Part shown: positions 442 through 11,920 of the stretch, piece by piece
Position numbering within the stretch: position 1 is the stretch's first letter
How the letters are laid out: every line of letters starts with the position of its first letter
Assembly (NCBI GenBank): GCA_030950365.1
Contig: JAUZRQ010000044.1
Location: 1 to 42,163, forward strand
Length of the DNA stretch: 42,163 nt
Direction: 5' to 3'
DNA from: Candidatus Zhuqueibacterota bacterium
GTDB taxonomy: Bacteria > Zhuqueibacterota > Zhuqueibacteria > Zhuqueibacterales > Geothermadaptataceae
Notes under the pieces: generated by a model
Told to the model about the DNA's origin: nothing
Seen by the model: only the letters and a program-made list of their open reading frames with translations
The model's database searches: none
Position numbers and translations under genes: made by a program

Positions 442-1776
442 ATGATGCTGAAGCGCGAAGACATTCTCCTCCGAGGCGGCCTCGTGGTGACGATGAACCA
501 ACAGGGCGAGGTCTTTCGTGGAGATATCCTCATAAAGAACGGTCGGATTGCCGAAATTGGCAAGGTCAGTGCCGGAAAGGCCAGAGTTATTGATTGCCAC
601 CACTACCTGCTACTCCCCGGCTTTGTGCAGACCCATGTTCATCTTTGTCAGACGTTGTTCCGCGGCCAGGCCGATGATCTTACATTGTTGGATTGGCTAC
701 AGAAACGCATCTGGCCCATGGAGGGGGCTCTTGACCCGGCGGCCATGCGTATTTCCGCACGATTAGGGATCGCAGAACTGATCAAAAGCGGCACAACCAC
801 TATTCTGGACATGGGAAGCGTACGGTATTACGATGTTATTTTTGAAGAAGTCGAGCATGCTGGGCTGCGTGTTATTGGTGGCAAGTGCATGATGGATCAT
901 CCAGAGACCACCCCAAAATCGCTCCTGGAAAGCACACGGGAGAGTCTCGAGGAAACCGAGCGGCTGGCTAAACGATGGCATGGCCGTGAGGATGGCCGTA
1001 TCCTGTACGCCGTATCCCCCCGATTTGCCGTGTCTTGTACGCGCGAGCTGATGGAGCAGGCGGCACACCTGGCACGCGAGAATGGCTATCACTTGCATAC
1101 GCACGCATCCGAAAATCGGGATGAGATCGCGCTGATCGAAAAGCGAGAGAAGGTTAGCAACATTCACTTTTTGCATTACAGCGGTTTTACCGGTGAGGAT
1201 GTGACCCTGGCTCACTGCATCTGGCTGGGGGGCATGGAAAAACAGGTAATCGTCGAAACCAACACGGCAGTTGCGCACTGTCCATCTAGCAATTTAAAGC
1301 TGGCCTCCGGCATTGCCCCGTTGCTGGACTACCTCGCCCGCGGTGTGCGTGTCGGCCTGGGCGCAGATGGTGCGGCCTGTAACAACAATTTGGATATATT
1401 TCAGGAAATGCGCCTGGCCGCGCTGATTCACAAACCCCGTTACGGCGCCGATGCCATCAAAGCCGAAAAGGTCGTGCGGATGGCCACCATCGATGGTGCG
1501 AGGGCCCTGAATCTGGATCACGAGATCGGCTCCATTGAAGTGGGCAAACGCGCCGATATCATCGGCATCCAGGACCTCGCCGTGCACAGTCAGCCGCGCC
1601 ACAATGTGTATGGTCAGCTCGTGTATGCCACCAGCGGCCGGGATGTCATGCTGACCATCGTGGATGGCCGCATTCTCATGGACAACCGCGAGCTGATTCC
1701 CATCGATGAGGAGGCCACCGTGCAAACGGCTCGGGACGAGCTGAAAAAAGTGATTTTGAAATTGACACAGAAGTAG
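442..1776 (+). CDS. mtaD: 5-methylthioadenosine/S-adenosylhomocysteine deaminase (amidohydrolase)
   Basis: A 444-residue amidohydrolase of the TRZ/ATZ/MtaD group, which deaminates the adenine ring of 5'-methylthioadenosine and S-adenosylhomocysteine to inosine derivatives. The N-terminal part of the composite beta domain leads into the metal-binding H-x-H at H65/H67 (QTHVHLCQTL). The barrel then carries HTHASEN near residue 218, LAHC near 257 and GADGAACNN near 307, which supply the remaining metal and catalytic His/Asp. The C-terminus has the family signature GSIEVGKRADI. The start could be ATG 442 or ATG 445; AAAAAGG at 434-440 fits 445 slightly better. It lies 138 bp after the phosphorylase, and SAM-cycle genes metK and ahcY are elsewhere in the window. 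Other TRZ/ATZ deaminases (for example guanine deaminase) are possible but less likely. Confidence 0.85.
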   Translation: MMLKREDILLRGGLVVTMNQQGEVFRGDILIKNGRIAEIGKVSAGKARVIDCHHYLLLPGFVQTHVHLCQTLFRGQADDLTLLDWLQKRIWPMEGALDPAAMRISARLGIAELIKSGTTTILDMGSVRYYDVIFEEVEHAGLRVIGGKCMMDHPETTPKSLLESTRESLEETERLAKRWHGREDGRILYAVSPRFAVSCTRELMEQAAHLARENGYHLHTHASENRDEIALIEKREKVSNIHFLHYSGFTGEDVTLAHCIWLGGMEKQVIVETNTAVAHCPSSNLKLASGIAPLLDYLARGVRVGLGADGAACNNNLDIFQEMRLAALIHKPRYGADAIKAEKVVRMATIDGARALNLDHEIGSIEVGKRADIIGIQDLAVHSQPRHNVYGQLVYATSGRDVMLTIVDGRILMDNRELIPIDEEATVQTARDELKKVILKLTQK

Positions 1777-1799
1777 AAAGCCGCATCGCATTGAGCAGG

Positions 1800-2402
1800 A
1801 TGATCATTGCCATTGGGAGCACGCGCGCACCGAAAGTTCAGGCCGTGGAAACAGTGTTTCGGCAACTGGCGCCTGAGCTGGAGCTGGAACCGGAGGCCCT
1901 GGAATTTCGATCGCTATCGGCCTCGAGCGGCGTTTCCGAAATGCCCATGAGTCTGCAGGCATTGATGACGGGGGCCCGGAACCGCGCCATGCATGCACAG
2001 CAGTTGTTGCGGGAGGCCGGTAGGGAGCCGGCGTTTGCCGTCGGACTGGAAGGCGGGCTGTTCAGCGTTAGTCCGGAAACATCGCACTCGGACTATTTCT
2101 TGCAATCGTGGGTGTATGTTTTTGGCCGTGGGAGGGGCTATTTCGGCTGCTCTGCCGCCGTGCCCGTGCCTGCACCAATCGTGAGGGCCGTCCTCGAACA
2201 CCGCGCCGAGCTGGGCGTGATCATTGACGAATATGCGAATCAGAAAAACGTGCGCGACAAAGGCGGCGCTTTTGAGGTTTTTACACGCGGTCGGGTGGTG
2301 CGTCAGGCAAGTTACGAAATTGCGTTGATTTGTGCACTGGCACCGTTCTACAACGCCGGCCTATATCTCAACCATCAGGATGATGCAATGGAACATGATT
2401 AA
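1800..2402 (+). CDS. Inosine/xanthosine triphosphatase, DUF84 (YjjX-like)
   Basis: About 200 residues of the DUF84/NTPase family, which hydrolyses non-canonical ITP and XTP and so keeps deaminated purines out of nucleic acids. Seen in the sequence are the N-terminal IIAIGSTRAPKVQAV (phosphate-binding strand and helix), SGVSEMPMS, GARNRAMHA and VGLEGGLF, all typical of the family. The chosen start is ATG 1800, because family members begin directly with the IAIGS strand. A TTG at 1791 in the same frame would add three residues. It begins 23 bp after the deaminase gene and its end overlaps the following methyltransferase, so the three are probably co-transcribed. The link with purine deamination next door is suggestive only. 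Confidence 0.82.
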   Translation: MIIAIGSTRAPKVQAVETVFRQLAPELELEPEALEFRSLSASSGVSEMPMSLQALMTGARNRAMHAQQLLREAGREPAFAVGLEGGLFSVSPETSHSDYFLQSWVYVFGRGRGYFGCSAAVPVPAPIVRAVLEHRAELGVIIDEYANQKNVRDKGGAFEVFTRGRVVRQASYEIALICALAPFYNAGLYLNHQDDAMEHD

Positions 2403-2985
2403 TCTTTGGGATCAAAAAGCCAAATGGTATGACTTTGCCCGTCAGATTCCCGTCGTTCGAGCCCTGTATCAGACCGAATTGCGGTTACTGCAATCGCTGA
2501 TTCCAGAACAGCCCATCGATACCCATCTCGATATCGGTACCGGAACCGGATCGACGCTGGCCATTTTTCACCGTTCTAGAATGTTGATCCTGTCCGATCG
2601 TTCTTCACGCATGCTTCGCATTGCCATCCAACGTCATCCCGGGCCGGCCATTGTGCTCGATCTGGAGCAAGGCCTTCCTTTTCAGAATCAGAGTTTCGAT
2701 TTTTTAACTGCCGTGGGCGTGTTTGAATACCTTCGAGAACCAGAGTTTGTCCTGCGCGAATTGTACCGCGTGGCCAAGGTGCAGGCCTTTCTGCTTTTTA
2801 CCACGACGCCGATCGGTTGGTTTTCGTTATTGCGCTATTTTACCGGAAACCGCCCACGCATGTATCGTGAACAGGCCGTGCAGCGTATGCTACGTTCGGC
2901 CGGCTGGTCGAAAATCGATCAGCGCAAGTGCAAAACCCAGGATCAATGGTTGTGTCAGAAAAAAAGTGAGAAAACCCCGATATGA
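2395..2985 (+). CDS. Class I SAM-dependent methyltransferase, substrate unknown
   Basis: About 196 residues with a Rossmann methyltransferase fold. Motif I is LDIGTGTGS (residues ~45-53), followed by an acidic SDRSSRML segment for the SAM ribose, and a motif-IV-like stretch DFLTAVGVFEYL. The family is the broad Methyltransf_11/UbiE-like group, and nothing in the C-terminal part identifies the substrate. ATG 2395 gives MINLWDQKAKWYD, a common beginning in the group; ATG 2380 and 2383 in the same frame are alternatives with a somewhat better upstream CAGGA. The gene overlaps the end of the DUF84 gene by 8 nt and the next gene by a 4-nt ATGA, so it sits inside a tight operon with the two glgC paralogues. 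Confidence 0.8.
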   Translation: MINLWDQKAKWYDFARQIPVVRALYQTELRLLQSLIPEQPIDTHLDIGTGTGSTLAIFHRSRMLILSDRSSRMLRIAIQRHPGPAIVLDLEQGLPFQNQSFDFLTAVGVFEYLREPEFVLRELYRVAKVQAFLLFTTTPIGWFSLLRYFTGNRPRMYREQAVQRMLRSAGWSKIDQRKCKTQDQWLCQKKSEKTPI

Positions 2986-4265
2986 TGTATGGAGACAAGG
3001 TGTTGGCCATGATTCTGGCCGGCGGTCGCGTGGATGAATTGAGCGTTTTGACCATGAACAGGCCCAAGGCTGCCGTGCCCTTTGGCGGCCTGTACCGGGT
3101 CATCGATTTCCCTCTGAGCAATTTGATGCATTCTGGCATTGAGCGAGTGGGCATTCTTTCGCAATACCGTCCTTTTTCACTCATGAATCACATTGGCAAT
3201 GGCATGGCCTGGGACATGGTCGGCCGCAACCGTTATATCCATTTTCTGCCGCCGTTCAAAGGCTATAAGCCATCGGACTGGTACCGTGGCACCGCCGATG
3301 CTATCTATCAAAACCTGGATTACATTCAGCACGGCAATCCCTCTCTTGTGATGATCCTGTCCGGCGATCACATCTATAAGATGAATTATCTGGATTTGGT
3401 CCGCTTTCATATTGACAATGAAGCCGATGTCACCATTGTGTTCAAAGAGGTGCCGCCGGATCAGGCATCACGGTTCGGGCAGGGTATCATTGAGGGGCAG
3501 GACCAGCGAGGCGGCCCGCTGAAAGCGTATTCGGAGAAAGCACGCCGGCCCATCAGCAACTGGGCCTCGCTGACGATTTATCTGTTCAAAGCCGAAATCC
3601 TGTACGAAATCGTCGAGCAATTGGTAGGAAAACAACGGCTGTTTGAATTTGGCCGCGACATTTTGCCTCGGATTCTCGACGATTACCGGGTGTTCGGCTA
3701 CCAATTCCGCGGCTACTGGGGCTACACTCGCACCATCGTGGAATTTTACATGACCAACATGAGCCTTTTGGGTGATCAACCAGAGATCGATCCGGATGCG
3801 TGGATGGTGCGCACCAATTTGGAGCACCGCCGCATCCAGGACCGGCCGCCGGCGATCGTGGGCAAGGAGGCCGTGGTGGAGAATTCGCTCATTTATAATG
3901 GCTGCCGTGTGTATGGCCAGGTGCGCAACAGCATTTTGTTTCCAGGAGTGTATGTGGCGCCGGATGCGGTGGTGCAGGACTCGATCATTTTTTTCGATAG
4001 CCAGGTTCTGGAACGCGCCACCGTCATGCAGACGATCATCGACACTGATGCTATCATCGGGCAGGCAGCCATCATTGGGCGGGCCGGTCTGCCCCGGTTG
4101 GATGGCTTCCGCCCGCATGTCAAACAATCCGATCTGGTGTTGATCGGCCAGGAAGCCATCGTACCGGCAGGGATCACGCTGTCACCTGGTTGCCTTGTGT
4201 ATCCCGGCACGCCGGAACGGCATTTTACCAAATCGCAATACATGTCCGGAGAGGAAATCCAATGA
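2982..4265 (+). CDS. GlgC paralogue lacking catalytic residues (GlgD-like subunit)
   Basis: A 427-residue protein with the ADP-glucose pyrophosphorylase layout: an N-terminal nucleotidyltransferase domain (~1-280) and a C-terminal left-handed beta-helix (~290-427). It keeps KAAVPFGGLYRVIDFPLSN, WYRGTADA and SGDHIYKMNY, the last with the first metal-binding Asp. Two key sites differ from true GlgC. The GxGxRL loop reads GGRVDEL, so the Arg is Glu19, and the conserved YWRDVGT reads YWGYTRT, so the second metal Asp is Tyr248. The protein is therefore probably a non-catalytic or regulatory partner, as GlgD is to GlgC in Firmicutes (inference). It starts with ATGA on the methyltransferase stop and ends with ATGA on the intact glgC. 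Family membership is sure. Confidence 0.82.
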   Translation: MMYGDKVLAMILAGGRVDELSVLTMNRPKAAVPFGGLYRVIDFPLSNLMHSGIERVGILSQYRPFSLMNHIGNGMAWDMVGRNRYIHFLPPFKGYKPSDWYRGTADAIYQNLDYIQHGNPSLVMILSGDHIYKMNYLDLVRFHIDNEADVTIVFKEVPPDQASRFGQGIIEGQDQRGGPLKAYSEKARRPISNWASLTIYLFKAEILYEIVEQLVGKQRLFEFGRDILPRILDDYRVFGYQFRGYWGYTRTIVEFYMTNMSLLGDQPEIDPDAWMVRTNLEHRRIQDRPPAIVGKEAVVENSLIYNGCRVYGQVRNSILFPGVYVAPDAVVQDSIIFFDSQVLERATVMQTIIDTDAIIGQAAIIGRAGLPRLDGFRPHVKQSDLVLIGQEAIVPAGITLSPGCLVYPGTPERHFTKSQYMSGEEIQ

Positions 4266-5542
4266 AACAAACCATAGGACTGATTCTCGCAGGAGGAGAG
4301 GGAAGCCGGCTCAGTGTGCTGGCTCAGGCTCGCGCCAAGCCGGCCGTGCCGTTCGGCGGCATTTACCGCATCATCGATTTCACTCTGAGCAACGCCGCCA
4401 ACTCCGGAGTTCACCGCCTTGGAGTTCTGACTCAGTACAAGCCTCTGTCACTGATGGAGCACCTCGGCGCCGGCGATGCCTGGGGCTTTTTCGGGCGCAC
4501 GCGGCGCATCAAAATTCTGCCGCCGCGCACCGGTAAGAAGGACTCGGACTGGTATCGCGGTACAGCCGATGCCGTGCGGCAGAACATGGATTTTCTGGAA
4601 AGCTATCCGGAGTATGATACGCTACTCATTCTGTCCGGGGATCACATCTATCACATGAACTACAGCGAAATGGTCCAATTTCACCGAGAGCGGCATGCCG
4701 ACCTCACCATCGCCACCATGCGTGTGCCCATCGAGGAAGCTCGGCATTTCGGCATCGCACAGGTGGATCACGATTACCGGATCATCGACTGGGAAGAGAA
4801 ACCGGAAAAGCCGAAAAGCAATCTGGCGTCCATGGGCATTTACGTGTTTTCTCTGGCGTTTTTGCGGCGCGCATTCCAGGAAAATCCGGGCCCGGATTTT
4901 GGCAAGCACATCGTGCCATTTGCCTGCGAGCATGCCGATATCTATGCGTTTCCGTTCAATGGTTACTGGCGGGATGTGGGTACATTAAAATCCTACTGGC
5001 AGACCAATCTCGATTTATTGTCGCCGGAAACCGGTATTGATCCGGGCGGTTGGAAGATTTACCCCAACCTGGATGAGAAGCACCGCATCGGTGACCGGCC
5101 GCCGACCTTCATGGGCTCCAATGCCACGGTACGCAACAGTCTCATCAGTCACGGCTGCATTATCGAAGGTACGGTGATCAATTCGGTGCTGTCGCCGGGG
5201 GTTTACGTACAGCGCGATACAGTTATACAGGAAAGCATCATCATGAGCGGCTGCGAAATTGGCGAGGGTGCCTGGCTGGAGAGGGTCATTCTTGATAAGC
5301 AGGTCATCGTCGGTGACGGCGCCCGGATCGGTGAGGGTGAGCCGGTTCCGAATGAGGAAAAGCCGCAATTGCTGGAGGCCGGCCTGACCGTCATCGGTAA
5401 ACACGTGACTATTCCGAATAAAGCGCACATCGGCAAGCACTGCGTGATTTTTCCGCACGTGAAGGCCGAGGAATTCCCCGCCTCGATTATACCAAGTGGC
5501 ACCACATTGAAGAAGCTCGAAATGCTTGAGGAAGTGGAATGA
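4262..5542 (+). CDS. glgC: Glucose-1-phosphate adenylyltransferase
   Basis: A 426-residue ADP-glucose pyrophosphorylase, which makes ADP-glucose from ATP and glucose-1-phosphate for glycogen synthesis. All the usual elements are visible: LAGGEGSRL (Arg16) with KPAVPFGG, DWYRGTADA, LSGDHIYHMNY, the sugar-phosphate-binding EEKP segment followed by LASMGIYVF, and YWRDVGT with the second metal Asp (D238). A left-handed beta-helix follows (~residues 285-420). The start is ATG 4262, overlapping the previous stop as ATGA and preceded by GGAGAGGAAA. This copy keeps the residues its upstream paralogue has lost, so it is the predicted catalytic subunit of the pair. No glycogen synthase or branching enzyme is in the window. 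Confidence 0.93.
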   Translation: MKQTIGLILAGGEGSRLSVLAQARAKPAVPFGGIYRIIDFTLSNAANSGVHRLGVLTQYKPLSLMEHLGAGDAWGFFGRTRRIKILPPRTGKKDSDWYRGTADAVRQNMDFLESYPEYDTLLILSGDHIYHMNYSEMVQFHRERHADLTIATMRVPIEEARHFGIAQVDHDYRIIDWEEKPEKPKSNLASMGIYVFSLAFLRRAFQENPGPDFGKHIVPFACEHADIYAFPFNGYWRDVGTLKSYWQTNLDLLSPETGIDPGGWKIYPNLDEKHRIGDRPPTFMGSNATVRNSLISHGCIIEGTVINSVLSPGVYVQRDTVIQESIIMSGCEIGEGAWLERVILDKQVIVGDGARIGEGEPVPNEEKPQLLEAGLTVIGKHVTIPNKAHIGKHCVIFPHVKAEEFPASIIPSGTTLKKLEMLEEVE

Positions 5543-6002
5543 GGGCCGCATTGGGGTTTTGAACCTGTATTCCGATGCATAACTGGTTAAAAAATAATGA
5601 TGAAACGGCCATCCTGTAGGAGTTGCGGCAATATCTTGAATCTGGCTTCCCCTCTCCGCCCTCTCTGAATTCAACAGATAAATGTTGCCGCAACGCGACA
5701 TTGACACCGGCCATCCCGCCCACCTGTCGCGCCAGGGTCACTCCTTATCTGGAATAGGTGCTTTAAAAATCACAAATGGCCATTCGGCCGTGAGCCCACG
5801 TCGTCGTCTCGGCTTTTCGTAAGCGGCGATAGATGGGCTCCGGAATGCTGGTATAGCAAAGCGAACACTGAAATGGACATCGCGCCTGAATGGCTACGGG
5901 ACAATGCTTACTTTGCGGGATATTAACTTAACGCAGCTTTATTCGATGAGCCAATGGTCGTGGATGCGATGGCCGTTGAGCACAAGCCCCTTTGCTTTCA
6001 GC
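5543..6002. other. Non-coding stretch between glgC and the lysine module
   Basis: About 460 bases with no convincing gene on either strand. The stretch holds a long imperfect hairpin (5622-5694, listed separately), a shorter 7-bp inverted repeat (CGCGACA near 5694-5700 with TGTCGCG near 5731), and otherwise nothing I can recognise. Open frames inside it have no family resemblance and no ribosome binding site. It ends in the promoter for the aldehyde dehydrogenase gene. Confidence 0.6.
5622..5694. other. Long 73-nt stem-loop, possible structured RNA or decayed repeat
   Basis: GTTGCGGCAA at 5622-5631 pairs perfectly with TTGCCGCAAC at 5685-5694. The stem continues inwards: TATCT (5632-5636) with AGATA (5676-5680), leaving a 4-nt bulge, then TGAAT (5637-5641) with ATTCA (5669-5673), leaving a 2-nt bulge. 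This gives 20 base pairs in all around a pyrimidine-rich loop of 27 nt. There is no T-run after it, so it is not a normal intrinsic terminator for glgC, which ended 80 bp upstream. It could be a processing or 3'-end-stabilising element, a small RNA, or a remnant of a palindromic repeat. I found no second copy in the window. Confidence 0.5.
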
Positions 6003-6031
6003 TTGACTTTTGATAGCAATTTCACTAATAT
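6003..6031 (+). promoter_or_regulatory. Sigma70-type promoter for the aldehyde dehydrogenase gene
   Basis: TTGACT at 6003-6008 is followed by exactly 17 bases and then TAATAT at 6026-6031. This is close to consensus in both boxes, in an AT-rich stretch, 44 bases before the start codon. Transcription would begin near 6038, giving a short leader that includes the strong ribosome binding site GAGGAGAGGG (6063-6072). Confidence 0.65.
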
Positions 6032-6074
6032 TTAAAGTTTAAATATGATCATGCTAAACCATGAGGAGAGGGAA

Positions 6075-7562
6075 ATGGCTCGCGAATATAAGAACTATAT
6101 TGCAGGCGAATGGTGTGATTCGGTCACCGGGGAACGGTTTGAAAATCGCAATCCTGCCAACTGGGACGAAGTCATCGGTACGTTCCCGAATTCGAATGCC
6201 GAAGACGTCGATCGTGCCGTGCAGGCCGCCAAAGAGGCCTATGACGATTGGCGCCTGACTCCGGCGCCCATGCGAGGTGAGATTATTCGCAAGGTGGGCG
6301 ATCTGCTGACACAGTATAAAGAAGATATTGCCCGCACCATGACCCGCGAGATGGGCAAAGTGCTGGCCGAAACCCGTGGCGATGTGCAGGAAGGCATCGA
6401 CACCGCCTATTATGCGGCGACCGAGGGCCGGCGGCTGTTCGGCCATACAGTGCCATCGGAGCTACCCAACAAATTCAACCTGTCCATGCGCATTCCCATC
6501 GGGGTGGCGGGCATCATTACGCCGTGGAATTTCCCCATGGCCATCCCCACCTGGAAGATTTTTCCGGCGCTGGTGAGCGGCAATACGGTGGTGTTCAAGC
6601 CGGCCAGCGATACCCCTGCTACGGCAACGCGGCTGGTGGAAATTTTGCTAGAAGCGGGGGTTCCGCCTAAAGTGATTAACATCGTTCACGGTGGTGGAAC
6701 GCGCGTTGGCGTACCGATCGTGGAGCATCGCGATATTCGTCTGGTATCGTTCACGGGCTCTTCGGCCGTTGGCAAGCTGATTTCCGAGAAGGCGAGCAAG
6801 ACCCTCAAACGCGTGTCGCTAGAGCTCGGCGGCAAAAACGCGCAGATCGTCATGGATGACGCCGATTTGCATCTGGCGCTGGAAGGCGTGCTCTGGGGCG
6901 CCTTTGGCACCACCGGTCAGCGTTGCACGGCCACGAGCCGGTTGATTCTGCACGAAAAGATCTATGATCAATTTCTGGATATGCTGGTGCCAGCGGCGGA
7001 GAATTTGCGCCTCGGTGATGGGCTCGATGAAAACAATCAGGTCGGTCCGCTCATTAACGAGGGCCAGCTCGAGAAAGTCGATGAGTATGTGCAGATCGGC
7101 AAAAACGAGGGCGCGACCCTGGTCACCGGCGGCGAGCGCTATTCCGAAGGCGATTGCGCCAAAGGCTTTTTCTACAAGCCCACGATTTTCGTGGATGTGA
7201 AGCGCGACATGCGCATCGCCCGCGAGGAAATTTTTGGGCCGGTGCTGAGTGTGTTTAAAGTCTCGTCGTTTGATGAGGCCATCGATCTCATCAACGATTC
7301 CACTTACGGCCTGAGTTCGTCGATCTACACGCGCGATGTGAACATGGCCTTCAAAGCCATGCGTGACATCGAAGCCGGCATTACTTACATCAACGGCCCG
7401 ACGATCGGCGCCGAAGCGCACATGCCGTTCGGTGGCGTCAAAGAAACCGGCAACGGTCACCGCGAAGGCGGCTGGGAAGTGTTCGAATTCTACACCGAAA
7501 CCAAGGTGGTGTACGTCGATTATTCCGGCCGTCTGCAGCGGGCGCAGATCGACAACCGGTAA
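6075..7562 (+). CDS. NAD(P)-dependent aldehyde dehydrogenase, probably alpha-aminoadipate semialdehyde dehydrogenase
   Basis: A 495-residue member of the aldehyde dehydrogenase superfamily, complete at both ends. The cofactor-binding and catalytic parts are clear: TPWNFPMAIP, FKPASDTP, FTGSSAVGK, general base E250 in LELGGKN and catalytic C284 in GQRCTATSR (34 residues apart, as usual), then FGPVLSVFK and MPFGGVKETGNGHREGG near the C-terminus. The start is ATG 6075, since GAGGAGAGGG sits just upstream; ATG 6045 would place the start before that site. The next gene is a lysine 6-aminotransferase, whose product 2-aminoadipate 6-semialdehyde (cyclising to piperideine-6-carboxylate) would be oxidised here to 2-aminoadipate. 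That substrate is inferred from context. Other semialdehydes are possible from sequence alone. Confidence 0.88.
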   Translation: MAREYKNYIAGEWCDSVTGERFENRNPANWDEVIGTFPNSNAEDVDRAVQAAKEAYDDWRLTPAPMRGEIIRKVGDLLTQYKEDIARTMTREMGKVLAETRGDVQEGIDTAYYAATEGRRLFGHTVPSELPNKFNLSMRIPIGVAGIITPWNFPMAIPTWKIFPALVSGNTVVFKPASDTPATATRLVEILLEAGVPPKVINIVHGGGTRVGVPIVEHRDIRLVSFTGSSAVGKLISEKASKTLKRVSLELGGKNAQIVMDDADLHLALEGVLWGAFGTTGQRCTATSRLILHEKIYDQFLDMLVPAAENLRLGDGLDENNQVGPLINEGQLEKVDEYVQIGKNEGATLVTGGERYSEGDCAKGFFYKPTIFVDVKRDMRIAREEIFGPVLSVFKVSSFDEAIDLINDSTYGLSSSIYTRDVNMAFKAMRDIEAGITYINGPTIGAEAHMPFGGVKETGNGHREGGWEVFEFYTETKVVYVDYSGRLQRAQIDNR

Positions 7563-7590
7563 CCGATTTACATCGGAAATCCGGCAACAA

Positions 7591-7632
7591 TCGCCACGGT
7601 GGATGCCGACTGACAGGGTGCCACCGTGGCGA
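7591..7632. promoter_or_regulatory. Perfect 12-bp inverted repeat between ALDH and lat
   Basis: TCGCCACGGTGG at 7591-7602 is repeated inverted at 7621-7632 with an 18-nt loop. It begins 28 bases after the aldehyde dehydrogenase stop and ends 169 bases before the lat start. Only a weak T-cluster follows (ACTTTTCGG), so it may be a partial terminator, an mRNA-stabilising hairpin that sets the ratio of the two enzymes, or a protein-binding site. The remaining intergenic sequence to 7801 holds no gene. Confidence 0.45.
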
Positions 7633-7801
7633 ATCCATACTTTTCGGTGGTGAATTCGCCATTTCGGACGAAGTTGAAAATAGCGCGATGCATGTCATCG
7701 GAAACCATGGGGCGATAGGTGAAGATTTCAGTGAATGCCGTTGCGTAACGACCCCGTTGACTGAAATCGGTTCTGCAAGACATGAGAAAGGAGAAGACGC
7801 G

Positions 7802-9157
7802 GTGTCCAAGATAAGCACAGATCAGGTTCTGCCGATTCTGGAAACGCACATGCTGGTCGATGGCTATCGGATGGTCCTGGATCTGGAGAAGTCGCAGGGA
7901 CAGTATGTGTACGACGCGCTGAGCCAGCGTCGTTATCTCGATTTGTTTGGCTTTTTCGCAACCGCGCCGATCGGGCACAACCATCCGGCGCTGCAGGAGC
8001 CCGAGTTCGTGGAAAAATTGCTGCGCGTGGCGCGGATCAAGCCGTCAAATTCCGATTTTTATACCCGTGAGATGGCCGAGTTCGTGGATACGTTTTCGCG
8101 CGTGGCCATTCCGGACTATTTACCACATCTGTTTTTCATCAGCGGCGGCGCCCTGGCGGTGGAAAATGCCCTCAAAACCGCGTTCGACTGGAAGGTGCGC
8201 AAGAATTTCAAAAAGGGGTATCAAGAAGAGAAAGGCCATCAGGTCATCCATTTTCGCGAGGCGTTTCACGGCCGTTCGGGATACACATTGAGCCTCACCA
8301 ACACGGCCGATCCGCGCAAATACAAATATTTTCCGAAATTCGACTGGCCGCGGATCACCAATCCCAAAATCACCTTTCCGCTCAGTGCGGAGAACCTCGA
8401 AAAGGTCATTGCGCTGGAAAAGCAGGCCGAAGAAGAGATCAAACAGGCATTTGTGGAGCGCAAGGATGACATCGCCGCCATCATCATCGAGCCGATTCAG
8501 GGCGAGGGCGGCGACAATCATTTCCGGCCGGAGTTTTTCCAGCGGCTGCGCCAGCTTGCCGATGAGAACGAGGCCCTGCTGATTTTCGACGAGGTACAGA
8601 CCGGCGTTGGCCTGACGGGCGAGATGTGGGCGCACCAGGCGCTGGGCACGAAGCCGGATATCATGGCGTTCGGCAAAAAGACGCAGGTGTGCGGCATTCT
8701 GGCCGGTAAGCGCATCGACGAGGTGGAGGGCAACGTATTCGAAGAAAAGAGCCGCATCAATTCTACCTGGGGCGGCAATCTGGTGGACATGGTTCGGTTC
8801 CAGAAATACCTGGAAATCATCGAGCAGGAGAACCTGCTGGAGAACGTTCGCACCACCGGCCGGTATTTTCTGGAGCAGTTGCAGGCCATGGCCGGGCGGC
8901 ATGGCGAGGATGTGATTTCCAATGTGCGCGGTCGCGGCCTCATGCTGGCATTCGATTTACCGAACGAAAAAATCCGCGATCAATTTTTGAGCCGCTGCCA
9001 GCAGAACGGCCTGCTGGTGCTGCCGTGCGGCCACCGTTCGATTCGCGTGCGCCCGATGCTGGACATCCAGCGCGAGCATGTGGATGAAGCCATGGCCATT
9101 TTTGAAAAAAGCCTGAAGGAGGTTCTGGATAAAGCGGTGCACACCGACCGCGTTTAA
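7802..9157 (+). CDS. lat: L-lysine 6-transaminase
   Basis: A 451-residue class-III, PLP-dependent aminotransferase of the LAT family. It moves the epsilon-amino group of lysine to 2-oxoglutarate, giving 2-aminoadipate 6-semialdehyde. Features shared with mycobacterial LAT are NHPAL, KPSNSDFYT, FFISGGALAVENALK, EPIQGEGGDNHFR, LIFDEVQTGVG and FGKKTQVCG, where K292 or K293 is the Schiff-base lysine. GTG 7802 is chosen because AAAGGAGA lies about 8 bases upstream; an in-frame ATG at 7688 would add 38 residues unlike the family. With the upstream aldehyde dehydrogenase it forms a lysine-to-aminoadipate pathway. Assignment to the LAT family is strong. Whether the route is catabolic or feeds a product cannot be read here. 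Confidence 0.9.
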   Translation: MSKISTDQVLPILETHMLVDGYRMVLDLEKSQGQYVYDALSQRRYLDLFGFFATAPIGHNHPALQEPEFVEKLLRVARIKPSNSDFYTREMAEFVDTFSRVAIPDYLPHLFFISGGALAVENALKTAFDWKVRKNFKKGYQEEKGHQVIHFREAFHGRSGYTLSLTNTADPRKYKYFPKFDWPRITNPKITFPLSAENLEKVIALEKQAEEEIKQAFVERKDDIAAIIIEPIQGEGGDNHFRPEFFQRLRQLADENEALLIFDEVQTGVGLTGEMWAHQALGTKPDIMAFGKKTQVCGILAGKRIDEVEGNVFEEKSRINSTWGGNLVDMVRFQKYLEIIEQENLLENVRTTGRYFLEQLQAMAGRHGEDVISNVRGRGLMLAFDLPNEKIRDQFLSRCQQNGLLVLPCGHRSIRVRPMLDIQREHVDEAMAIFEKSLKEVLDKAVHTDRV

Positions 9158-9159
9158 GC

Positions 9160-9897
9160 ATGGCTGAAACGGACAAGGCACCGCCGAACTCGGCGGCGAA
9201 AGTGGAGCGAGCGACCCTGTATGTGGTGAGCACGCCCATCGGCAACCTGCGGGACATCACCCTGCGCGCCATCGATGTGCTGTCGGCCGTGGACCTGGTG
9301 GCGGCGGAGGACACGCGCCACAGCCGCAAGCTGTTCGGGGAATACGGTGTCCGGACGCCGATGATCAGCTTTCACGACTTCAATAAAGAGCGTCAGGCAC
9401 CGAAAATCATAAAAGAGCTGCAGTCCGGCAAGGCCGTAGCGCTAATTTCCGACGCCGGCACCCCGGGCATTTCCGATCCGGGTTTTTATCTGATTCGTGA
9501 GGCCATTCGTACCGGAATCCGGGTGCAGGCCATTCCCGGGCCCACGGCACTGATCCCCGCGCTGATTCTTTCCGGATTGCCGGTGCATCGATTCGTGTTT
9601 GAAGGTTTCCCGCCGCCGAAAAAAGGACGTCGGCGGTTTTTTGAGGCTCTGGCGGGTGAGGAGCGGACGATCATACTGTACGAATCACCGCACCGGTTGC
9701 AGCGCACGCTGGCGGATTTGCTCAGCGCCTGCGGAGATCGCAATGTGGCCATTGCCCGGGAGCTGACTAAAAAATTTGAGGAAATCCTCCGCGGGCGGCT
9801 GTCTGAGTTGATCAAGTCTGTCGAATCCAGACCTCTTAAAGGAGAAATTGTTTTAGTCGTAGAAGGTAAACAAAAGAAGGACAAAGAAAAGGCATGA
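9160..9897 (+). CDS. rsmI: 16S rRNA 2'-O-methyltransferase (C1402)
   Basis: A 245-residue tetrapyrrole-methylase-fold protein of the RsmI family, which methylates the ribose of 16S rRNA C1402 in the decoding centre. Diagnostic segments are LYVVSTPIGNLRDITLRA at the N-terminus, AAEDTRHSRKL, ISDAGTPGISDPG, IPGPTALIPALILSGLP, FEGFPPPKKGRR and LYESPHRL. It begins only 2 bases after the lat stop and overlaps the following phosphatidyltransferase gene by ATGA, so it sits in an operon of unrelated functions. It is somewhat shorter than the E. coli protein at the C-terminus, which is common. No unusual residue is seen. Confidence 0.95.
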   Translation: MAETDKAPPNSAAKVERATLYVVSTPIGNLRDITLRAIDVLSAVDLVAAEDTRHSRKLFGEYGVRTPMISFHDFNKERQAPKIIKELQSGKAVALISDAGTPGISDPGFYLIREAIRTGIRVQAIPGPTALIPALILSGLPVHRFVFEGFPPPKKGRRRFFEALAGEERTIILYESPHRLQRTLADLLSACGDRNVAIARELTKKFEEILRGRLSELIKSVESRPLKGEIVLVVEGKQKKDKEKA

Positions 9898-10520
9898 AAT
9901 CGAATCTGATTATTTTGCCCTCAAGTGTGAAATCCTGGTATCTCAATTTGATGAAACCGGTTTTCGATTTTTTTATTGAACTTGAGATAAACCCTAATTT
10001 TTTCACGACTATAGGGTTTGTTTTAAGCATCATTTCGGCCTATATGTTTGCAACCGGGAGTTTGCGAATGGCGGGGGCACTGGTGCTGCTGGCTGGTACG
10101 TTTGATATCATCGATGGCCGGGTGGCCCGTGCTACCAATCGCGTCACCAAATTTGGCGCGTTGTACGACTCCACCCTTGATCGATACTCAGAAGTGATCG
10201 TTTTTTTTGGCCTGGCCTACTATTTTGTTAGCCAGGGCATGCTGATTACGTCCACAGCCGTTTTCGTGGCCCTGGGCGGCTCGATCATGGTCAGTTATGT
10301 GCGAGCCCGGGCTGAAGGGCTGGGTTTTGAATGCAATGTTGGGCTTATGCAGCGCCCCGAGCGAATTGTTTATCTGGGAGTGAGTGCCCTCATTCATAAA
10401 TATTTGCTCATCATAGCCATTATGTTGATTGCCGTTCTGGCCAATTATACGGCCATCCAGCGATTGTATCATGTCTGGAAGAAGGAAAACGGTGCTAAAT
10501 TTGAAAAGCTCGAGGAGTAG
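9894..10520 (+). CDS. CDP-alcohol phosphatidyltransferase, probably phosphatidylinositol(-phosphate) synthase
   Basis: A 208-residue integral membrane enzyme with the complete family signature D-x2-D-G-x2-A-R-x8-G-x3-D-x3-D: D71, D74, G75, A78, R79, G88, D92 and D96. These residues bind the metals and the CDP-diacylglycerol pyrophosphate. Five or six hydrophobic helices are visible, for example TTIGFVLSIISAYMF and LLIIAIMLIAVLANY. The family joins CDP-diacylglycerol to an alcohol such as glycerol-3-phosphate, serine or inositol phosphate. The next gene makes inositol-3-phosphate, so the acceptor is inferred to be inositol phosphate. It overlaps rsmI by ATGA. Codon use at the 5' end is more AT-rich than in rsmI. 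The enzyme class is sure and the substrate is an inference. Confidence 0.85.
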   Translation: MKSNLIILPSSVKSWYLNLMKPVFDFFIELEINPNFFTTIGFVLSIISAYMFATGSLRMAGALVLLAGTFDIIDGRVARATNRVTKFGALYDSTLDRYSEVIVFFGLAYYFVSQGMLITSTAVFVALGGSIMVSYVRARAEGLGFECNVGLMQRPERIVYLGVSALIHKYLLIIAIMLIAVLANYTAIQRLYHVWKKENGAKFEKLEE

Positions 10521-10603
10521 TTTGTAAAGGCTTCGGATGGCAGATCGATGCTGATGGCTGTGTCATTTTGAACCCTAACAGCTAAGCGAAGGAGGGAAAA
10601 ACG

Positions 10604-11920
10604 GTGGTAGAAAAAGGTGTTGAGATAAAAGCGCCCGAAGGCAAATTAGGAATTTTGACCCCGGGCATGGGCGCCGTGGCAACCACGTTCATTGCCGGGG
10701 TGCTATCGATTCGCAAAGGTCACGGCAAGCCAATCGGTTCGCTCACCCAAATGGGCACCATCCGGCTGGGGAAACGCACGGAAAACCGTTCACCGAAAAT
10801 CAAAGATTTTGTGCCGCTGGCCGAACTGACTGATCTGGTGTTTGGCGGTTGGGATATTTTTGAAGACAATGCCTACGAGGCTGCGATGAAAGCCGGTGTG
10901 CTCGATAAAGATGATATAAACGTGGTCAAAGACGAGCTTCAGCAAATCAAGCCCATGCCAGCCGTGTTTGATCCCGAATATGTTAAAAAGCTGCATGGCA
11001 GCTATGTTAAACAGGGCAAAAACAAAATGGACCTCGCCGAGCAACTGCGTGAAGATATTCGCAATTTTATTAAGAAGAACGGTCTCTCTCGCGCGGTCAT
11101 GGTGTGGTGCGGTTCCACCGAGGTATATCTACAGCCGGATGAAGCGCACACCAGCATCGATAGATTCGAAAAGGCGATGATGGAGAATCATCCGGCCATC
11201 GCGCCGAGCATGCTGTATGCGTATGCGGCCATCAAAGAAGGCATCCCTTATGCCAACGGCGCCCCCAACTTGACCGTGGACATCCCGGCATTGCAGCAAC
11301 TGGCCAAAGACCTGAATGTGCCCATCGCAGGGAAAGATTTTAAAACCGGCCAAACGTTCATGAAAACCCTGCTGGCGCCAGGCTTGAAGGCGCGCTTGCT
11401 CGGGCTGCATGGCTGGTTCTCCACCAACATCCTTGGCAATCGCGATGGGGAGGTGCTGGATGATCCCATGTCGTTCAAGTCCAAAGAAGTAAGCAAGCTG
11501 GGCGTACTCGAGTACATTCTGCAGCCGGACCTGTATCCGGATCTGTACAACAACATTTATCATAAAGTGCGCATCAATTACTATCCACCGCGCGGGGACA
11601 ACAAAGAAGGCTGGGACAACATCGATATCTTTGGCTGGCTCGGCTATCCCATGCAGATTAAGATTGATTTTCTCTGCCGGGATAGCATTCTGGCCGCGCC
11701 CATCGTTCTAGACCTGGCGTTGTTTCTCGACCTGGCGCAGCGTTCCGGCATGCATGGAATCCAGGAATGGCTGTCGTTCTATTTCAAAAGCCCGATGGTC
11801 GCGCCGAACCTGTATCCTGAACATGATATTTTCATTCAACTGATGAAGCTCAAAAACACGTTGCGGCATTTGCGTGGCGAAGAGCTCATCACCCACCTTG
11901 GGCTGGAATACTACGATTAG
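10604..11920 (+). CDS. ino1: Inositol-3-phosphate synthase
   Basis: A 438-residue myo-inositol-1-phosphate synthase, which converts glucose-6-phosphate to inositol-3-phosphate in an NAD-dependent oxidation, cyclisation and reduction. Features are the N-terminal NAD-binding LGILTPGMGAVATTF, VMVWCGSTEVY, the active-site segment AGKDFKTGQT, GWFSTNILGNRDGEVLDDP, and a C-terminal DSILAAPIVLDLA, as in Bacteroidota-type enzymes. The start is GTG 10604, with AAGGAGGG 8 bases upstream. The 83-bp gap after the phosphatidyltransferase contains no obvious terminator. Its product is the head group for inositol phospholipids, which fits the preceding gene. A hairpin at 11961-11994 follows it. Confidence 0.93.
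   Translation: MVEKGVEIKAPEGKLGILTPGMGAVATTFIAGVLSIRKGHGKPIGSLTQMGTIRLGKRTENRSPKIKDFVPLAELTDLVFGGWDIFEDNAYEAAMKAGVLDKDDINVVKDELQQIKPMPAVFDPEYVKKLHGSYVKQGKNKMDLAEQLREDIRNFIKKNGLSRAVMVWCGSTEVYLQPDEAHTSIDRFEKAMMENHPAIAPSMLYAYAAIKEGIPYANGAPNLTVDIPALQQLAKDLNVPIAGKDFKTGQTFMKTLLAPGLKARLLGLHGWFSTNILGNRDGEVLDDPMSFKSKEVSKLGVLEYILQPDLYPDLYNNIYHKVRINYYPPRGDNKEGWDNIDIFGWLGYPMQIKIDFLCRDSILAAPIVLDLALFLDLAQRSGMHGIQEWLSFYFKSPMVAPNLYPEHDIFIQLMKLKNTLRHLRGEELITHLGLEYYD

Follow-up and report, generated by a model that had tools for sequence, protein, structure and literature searches.

Contig JAUZRQ010000044.1 of the Candidatus Zhuqueibacterota bacterium assembly GCA_030950365.1, analysed here over positions 1 to 42,163 (the window, 42,163 nucleotides), carries two neighbouring genes for paralogues of GlgC, an ADP-glucose pyrophosphorylase (AGPase). 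The first, here named S1 (2982..4265; 427 aa), has a rebuilt active site, and the second, S2 (4262..5542; 426 aa), has canonical active-site residues. All features described in the window are on the forward strand. The stop codon of S1 and the start codon of S2 overlap as ATGA (4262..4265), as had been noted in an earlier examination of the letters and their open reading frames (ORFs), here called the sequence-only reading. A domain scan found PF00483 (NTP_transferase) and a hexapeptide C-terminal domain in both proteins, which places them in the GlgC-like class with the AGPase fold. They share approximately 41% identity, and are the only two proteins in the window's genome that match S1 at an E-value of 1e-20.

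Active-site residues of S1 and S2

Residues were numbered by alignment to Escherichia coli GlgC (5l6s), which is gap-free in both motifs. At the position of E. coli Arg32, S1 has Glu19 (codon 3036-3038) and S2 has Arg16 (4307..4309), while at that of Asp276 they have Tyr248 and Asp238 (4973..4975), respectively. A passage of PMC5474683 describes Arg32 as critical in characterised enzymes and Asp142 and Asp276 as ligands of Mg. S2 holds all five of Arg32, Lys42, Asp142, Lys195 and Asp276, and S1 is without Arg32 and Asp276. The sequence-only reading had identified the same two losses in S1 and the same intact residues in S2, and the alignment to 5l6s bears it out. Misalignment was ruled out, as the motifs are gap-free, and so was substitution by a neighbouring Arg or Asp; Arg16 of S1 aligns with E. 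coli Arg29, not Arg32. That reading went too far in describing S1 as stripped of catalytic residues. Lys29, Asp129 (3366..3368) and Glu185-Lys186 (3534..3539), which correspond to E. coli Lys42, Asp142 and Glu194-Lys195, are retained, as is Ser212.

Five further changes that had not been noted earlier, V17, D18, P28, T198 and R250, are near-fixed in S1. V17 and D18 replace Gly30 and Thr31 in the G-loop, which reads GGRVDEL (3021..3041) in place of GxGxRL. P28, at E. coli Ala41, stands next to the retained lysine (P28-K29, 3063..3068), T198 (3573..3575) is at Gly214, and R250, at Gly278, is part of the Y248-T249-R250 segment (3723..3731) within YWGYTRT. S1 also has a specific Gly-Gly (G177-G178, 3510..3515) in the hairpin preceding the YxEK motif, and E254, six residues downstream of Y248, is a conserved acid new to S1 and a candidate alternative ligand.

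The best match to an AlphaFold2 (AF2) model of S1 was E. coli AGPase (6r8u, TM score 0.69), in agreement with the AGPase fold. The predicted local distance difference test scores were 71 for S1 and 68 for S2, with residues 15-33 of S1 below 50; the alignments A1 and A2 comprised only 22 and 24 rows.

Conservation, linkage and constraint in relatives

Relatives were compared in three sets. The first comprised 25 S1 rows, 27 S2 rows and, from a third and more distant type of GlgC, 17 rows; L040-L042 were excluded as duplicates. Adding loci from contig scans gave a second set of 45 S1 and 45 S2 rows, in which L020 and L063, from one contig, are both counted as S1 rows and L070 is without its N-terminus; truncated S2 rows (L019, L022 and L039) were excluded from the later sets. 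The third set was 40 further S1 stretches which, with the 45, give 85 S1 rows.

The S1 changes proved to be fixed or nearly so. In the first set, Glu at Arg32, Tyr at Asp276 and Thr at Gly214 were each present in 25/25 S1 rows. Tyr276, Thr214, Asp142, Glu194 and Lys195 were each found in 45/45 S1 rows of the second set, where position 32 is Glu in 39, Asp in four and Lys in one, one row having no N-terminus. The 40 further stretches all have Tyr276, Thr214, Lys42, Asp142 and Lys195, with Glu (36), Asp (two), Asn (one) or Lys (one) at position 32. Combined, the S1 rows have Tyr at Asp276 in 85/85, Thr at Gly214 in 85/85 and an acid at Arg32 in 81/84. Ser212, Lys42, Asp142, Glu194 and Lys195 are kept in every S1 row of the 45-row set that has the column (44/44 for Lys42), and E254 is present in 43/45. 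Gly214 is kept in 45/45 S2 rows. The Gly-Gly insert before the YxEK strand was found in 43/45 S1 rows, the other two being gapped, and in none of the 45 S2, 15 GlgC or 15 GlgD rows. As the replacements are fixed in relatives, chance or sequencing error was ruled out as their source.

At 85% conservation in each of the 45 S1 and 45 S2 rows, eleven columns discriminate the two. Eight of the eleven lie in catalytic motif segments, compared with 28/128 other S2-conserved columns (Fisher p 9e-4, a descriptive value and not a test, the segments having been picked after some of the changes were already visible). Two columns that we take to be effector-site residues, E. coli Arg386 and Arg419, behave differently. 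The Arg386 column is Lys in 45/45 S2 rows and in only 2/45 S1 rows, whereas the Arg419 column is Lys in 43/45 S2 rows and Arg or Lys in 27/45 S1 rows. Judged from these columns, the effector site of S1 appears to be lost only in part.

The two proteins evolve at similarly slow rates. Between the window and its nearest relative, the ratio of nonsynonymous to synonymous substitution rates (dN/dS) is 0.044 for S1 and 0.045 for S2, at a dS above 1.7 that is near saturation. For close pairs it is 0.04-0.17 in S1 (nine pairs) and 0.05-0.19 in S2 (eight pairs, dS being saturated in a ninth), with several dS values above 1. The mean protein distance ratio S1/S2 is 1.13 over 39 matched loci, compared with 1.76 for GlgD/GlgC over 15 loci.

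For genome searches, S1 was called by a score of more than 500 bits to A1, with motifs checked in the sequences that were fetched (the 45 and 40 rows). This line misses the most diverged S1, such as those in L080 (470 bits) and G080 (497 bits). Among 61 genomes of the window's phylum that were 85% complete or better, 35 have S1, 33 of them with a full S2 match and two with a piece of S2 at a contig end. In a draw of 115 genomes from the class of G068 (locus L066, Desulfocapsa, class Desulfobulbia), S1 was found in 108, of which 106 have a second GlgC match. The seven genomes without S1 comprise four with an S2-level match only and three with none. S1 was also found in at least 38 of 297 genomes drawn from the phylum of Desulfocapsa (Desulfobacterota), for which up to six candidates per genome were scored, and S1 loci are present in CSSED10-310 and Deltaproteobacteria records. 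The title of the L070 record, Actinomycetota OTbin.62, is probably wrong, as its genome, G071, gave a match identical in coordinates and score to that of G055:C236, which belongs to the window's class. The sequence-only reading had placed the pair in an apparently FCB-like bacterium (FCB, Fibrobacteres–Chlorobi–Bacteroidetes). This affiliation is very likely, some relatives being titled candidate division KSB1, a name assigned to the FCB group at NCBI. The pair is not restricted to a single such genome; it is widespread and extends to Desulfobacterota.

S2 was sought in 28 S1 genomes, namely 26 outside the Desulfobulbia draw together with G175 and G183, and was found whole or in part in 26. 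The two without a match are G332 and G175, where the contig ends no more than 0.4 kb from S1. S1 and S2 are clearly apart in 12/28, all in the phylum of Desulfocapsa (G222, G292, G319, G344, G345, G391, G392, G414, G433, G434, G454 and G473), the distance being approximately 77 kb, within one contig, in G391 and 1.6 Mb in G292. Both genes are also kept but apart in G008, G012 and G013 (genus g5) and in G067. This retention of both genes without linkage is the best evidence here that each needs the other.

Where they are linked, the spacing is often that of the window. Among 43 of the 45 S1 loci that were recognised by motif (L033 and L070 were missed), 27 have the 4-base overlap with S2 (ATGA, or GTGA in L077), one has another overlap, six have gaps of 0-30 bases, five have gaps of 31-400 bases and four have no S2 within 400 bases. 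A 4-base overlap, its bases not checked one by one, occurs in 22 of the 40 further stretches. Two of the remainder have other overlaps, one has a short gap, one runs off and 14 are without S2; two of these 14, L153 and L168, end at a contig end. The combination first seen in the window, a canonical GlgC paralogue alongside one that looks non-catalytic, is conserved as a pair that is often translationally coupled.

In the window, the order 5' of S1 (442-2985) is an amidohydrolase gene, a DUF84/NTPase_I-T gene and a methyltransferase-domain gene. This third gene, an ORF at 2332..2985 whose true start is uncertain, ends in an ATGA overlap (2982-2985) with the start codon of S1; it is a neighbour that lies outside the S1/S2 pair. 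No glycogen gene was found among the eight neighbouring proteins scanned (442-11920). In two Desulfobulbales loci, a DHH-family gene (PF01368, approximately 340 aa) lies upstream of S1 (L066:4806-5849 and L081:4788-5810), and ORFs of similar length occupy that spot in L068, L074, L076 and L083. A nucleotidyltransferase-like ORF follows S2 in L063 (9019-11448, 810 aa), L038, L043, L044 and L045, and an alpha-amylase-family gene, a GH57 gene and a TreT-type gene are in the vicinity of the pair in L064. In G135, a genome of the Desulfobulbia draw, S1 occurs twice (C37 and C40; L178 and L179) among four matches in total, probably as part of two S1/S2 pairs. The third, more distant GlgC type (L046-L058 and L060-L062) has canonical residues; its carriers in the class include several genomes that lack the S1/S2 pair and some that have it.

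Function of the pair and alternative explanations

We consider it probable that S1 and S2 form a heteromeric ADP-glucose pyrophosphorylase in which S1 does not perform nucleotidyl transfer and modulates S2. This builds on the observed sequence changes, their fixation, the co-occurrence and linkage of the genes and the constraint on them. The two proteins would be subunits of one enzyme that feeds glycogen synthesis, with S2 making ADP-glucose. The pair is read as ADP-glucose pyrophosphorylase subunits because a glycogen-synthase-type domain (PF08323) was found in 60/61 genomes of the phylum sample (two in the window's own), because only S1 and S2 match S1 in that genome, and because polyglucose is named as a storage polymer of Desulfovibrio and Desulfobulbus propionicus in the title of a reference cited in PMC9764997. 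S1, a GlgC-fold paralogue, would be incapable of the usual Mg-dependent nucleotidyl transfer, as a metal ligand (D276Y), a critical Arg (R32E) and a G-loop residue (G30V) have been replaced. There are precedents for such a partner. GlgD is inactive and modulates GlgC (passages of PMC9093745), and animal GMPPA is inactive, binds GDP-mannose and inhibits GMPPB (passages of PMC11228364).

The old active site of S1 appears to be under constraint in a new form. On one side, the residues that we take to serve sugar-phosphate binding and catalysis, Lys195, Glu194, Ser212, Lys42 and Asp142, have stayed, and the nucleotide-phosphate and metal side would have been rebuilt with Val-Asp-Glu, Tyr, Arg and Thr. 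S1 most likely either binds a ligand in this rebuilt pocket or is held in a locked state by a Glu19-Arg250 contact within the protein, and its contacts with S2 would let it set the activity or the effector response of S2. A more specific proposal, which we hold only tentatively, is that S1 is a metabolite sensor that arose independently of GlgD and controls glycogen synthesis in Desulfobulbia and KSB1-type bacteria. A ligand other than ATP, such as ADP-glucose or a sugar phosphate, would occupy a pocket made of the Val-Asp-Glu loop, Thr198, Tyr248, Arg250, Glu254 and the old sugar-phosphate contacts, and this pocket would outweigh the partly lost classic effector site.

Several points weigh against a modulatory S1 in a heteromeric enzyme. 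S2 is present with no S1 in view in G014 (79% complete), G016 (at a contig start) and G084, and G132, G149, G190 and G194 show an S2-level score, motif unchecked, and no S1. Co-retention of the two genes falls short of proving contact. The partial loss of the classic effector site would count against S1 as a simple effector-binding subunit, and the retained Asp142, Lys195 and Lys42, together with the gained acids D18, E19 and E254, could signify a different activity. The S1 model has low confidence in the active-site loops, and a Glu19-Arg250 contact would rest on three rows of one lineage. The complex, the loss of S1 activity, the ligand and the direction of regulation are deduced from sequence.

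The alternative that fares best, though we regard it as unlikely, is that S1 is purely structural, stabilising S2 or enabling its assembly, and that its pocket is a plugged relic that binds nothing, with a Glu19-Arg250 salt bridge and Tyr248 filling the metal site. Such a plug would fit the charge-swapped pair at positions 32 and 278. An acid at 32 is accompanied by Arg, Lys or Gln at 278 in 81/85 S1 rows. Three others carry Lys (two rows) or Asn (one row) at 32, each with Gly at 278; no row combines the two patterns, and one row is without position 32. This covariation suggests a Glu19-Arg250 contact. The three exceptional rows are, however, mutual nearest relatives (76-78% identical), and the covariation, confined to this one lineage, may reflect a single event. 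The loss of one effector-site position from most S1 rows would also suit a structural partner, but Lys42, Asp142, Glu194, Lys195 and Ser212 are all invariant, although not every one of these would be needed for a plug.

The sequence-only reading had likened the pair to GlgC/GlgD of Firmicutes (Bacillota). The analogy holds, and the similar arrangement raises the question of whether S1 is a GlgD orthologue, derived from one ancient duplication and transferred later. We regard this as quite improbable. In a maximum-likelihood (ML) tree of 79 rows, from which 8 of the 17 third-type rows and many Bacillota loci were left out, S1 (100/99) and S2 (100/91) group together (100/97), and Bacillota-type GlgD (100/100) and GlgC (100/99) lie apart from them. 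According to this best tree, S1 and S2 arose by a duplication of their own. The approximately unbiased (AU) test leaves an S1+GlgD clade formally possible, the constrained tree giving p 0.148 with all 79 rows and p 0.072 with a 55-row set from which the longest, most divergent GlgD rows were removed.

Profile scores, residues and gene order also separate S1 from GlgD. Against the GlgD model TIGR02092 (cut-off 236.6), S1 scores 221.6 bits, close to the 215.3 of S2. Both proteins are also below the cut-offs of the GlgC models TIGR02091 (424.9; S1 313.8, S2 405.1) and NF003670 (470; S1 365, S2 446.6), so that even the canonical S2 falls just short of the NCBIfam GlgC cut-offs. None of 15 GlgD rows has Tyr276, Lys42 or the Gly-Gly insert, one has Thr214 and three have Pro41. 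Position 32 is Glu in one of them and still Arg in six, and position 276 is Asn (four), Arg (three), Cys (three), Ala (two), Ser (two) or Gly (one). S1 is thus outside GlgD by two measures of membership, the TIGR02092 cut-off and the loss of Lys42, although its mode of action may be similar. In Bacillota loci that show both genes, GlgC precedes GlgD, the reverse of the S1-S2 order, although GlgD comes first in a Thermotogae locus (L116). Taken with the ML tree and the model score, the GlgD residues disfavour orthology, which is not formally rejected.

Another tandem GlgC pair was seen in Chloroploca and an Armatimonadetes metagenome-assembled genome (L092:4689-5984 and 5920-7236; L087:3908-5983 and 4708-7260). 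In the second copy, Arg32 is replaced by Ala or Ser and Lys42 by Glu, while Asp142 and Asp276 are retained. As the degenerate copies of L092 and L087 cluster together in the ML tree (100/99), a degenerate subunit appears to have arisen here one more time.

That S1 is an active enzyme with an altered reaction or metal site, in which D18, E19, D129 or E254 replaces Asp276, seems very improbable. In its favour, S1 has gained three acids that hardly vary, D18, E19 and E254, and retains Asp142, Lys42 and Lys195. Nonetheless, characterised enzymes depend critically on Arg32 and Asp276 (the passage of PMC5474683 mentioned above), G30V sits in the triphosphate loop, and every S1 seen with neither S2 nor another GlgC match lies near a contig end. 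Lastly, that S1 is a decaying duplicate has next to no likelihood: two catalytic residues are lost, but dN/dS is as low as in S2, the replacements are fixed in distant groups, S1 is kept when unlinked from S2, and decay to a pseudogene was ruled out by this fixation, dN/dS and evolutionary rate.

Relation to known systems

Heteromeric ADP-glucose pyrophosphorylases have so far been described mainly in plants and Firmicutes. As in the S1/S2 pair, Bacillota GlgC and GlgD are neighbouring paralogues, one intact and one degenerate, and GlgD is described as inactive and modulatory (a passage of PMC9093745). The two differ in that S1 scores below the GlgD cut-off and groups with S2 in the ML tree (the AU test leaving the alternative possible), and keeps Lys42, Asp142 and Lys195 in all rows. 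The S1 pocket is new and fixed, whereas the corresponding GlgD positions scatter. Unlike GlgD, S1 is nearly as slow-evolving as its partner, and it precedes the catalytic gene where GlgD follows it.

The plant enzyme is also a heteromer, of two subunit types that share regulation, as described in part of PMC10461462, where Gram-negative ADP-glucose pyrophosphorylases are described as homotetramers. Plant rows were not used in the tree. The large subunit of the potato enzyme is reportedly modulatory and could be made catalytic again. Animal GMPPA/GMPPB likewise combines a non-catalytic paralogue that binds the product with a catalytic one on which it feeds back (PMC11228364, same passage), but it is a distant relative, and product binding by S1 would be an analogy only. 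GlgC of E. coli and Agrobacterium shares the fold (S1 model compared with 6r8u), and its five key residues are kept in S2, but it has a single subunit type and is a homotetramer.

Extra GlgC copies are mentioned for gammaproteobacteria in part of PMC4301808, and a passage of the review PMC11046441 mentions glgC1 and glgC2 of Vibrio and heterotetramers in 'some species', which it does not name. No description of a pair of the S1/S2 type was found in the literature searched, most subscription journals being outside its scope. As S1 and S2 are both GlgC-like, they could readily be mistaken for two copies of GlgC.

If our interpretation is correct, the two-subunit design is broader than plants and Firmicutes, extending to Desulfobulbia and KSB1-type bacteria of the FCB group, and probably arose again. 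As the changed pocket of S1 is fixed rather than scattered, the pair would provide a clean, testable case of a catalytic site becoming something else. At least two distant bacterial groups appear to make ADP-glucose with a pair of sister proteins, of which one resembles an ordinary enzyme and the other, with an active site rebuilt alike in almost every case, is probably regulatory.

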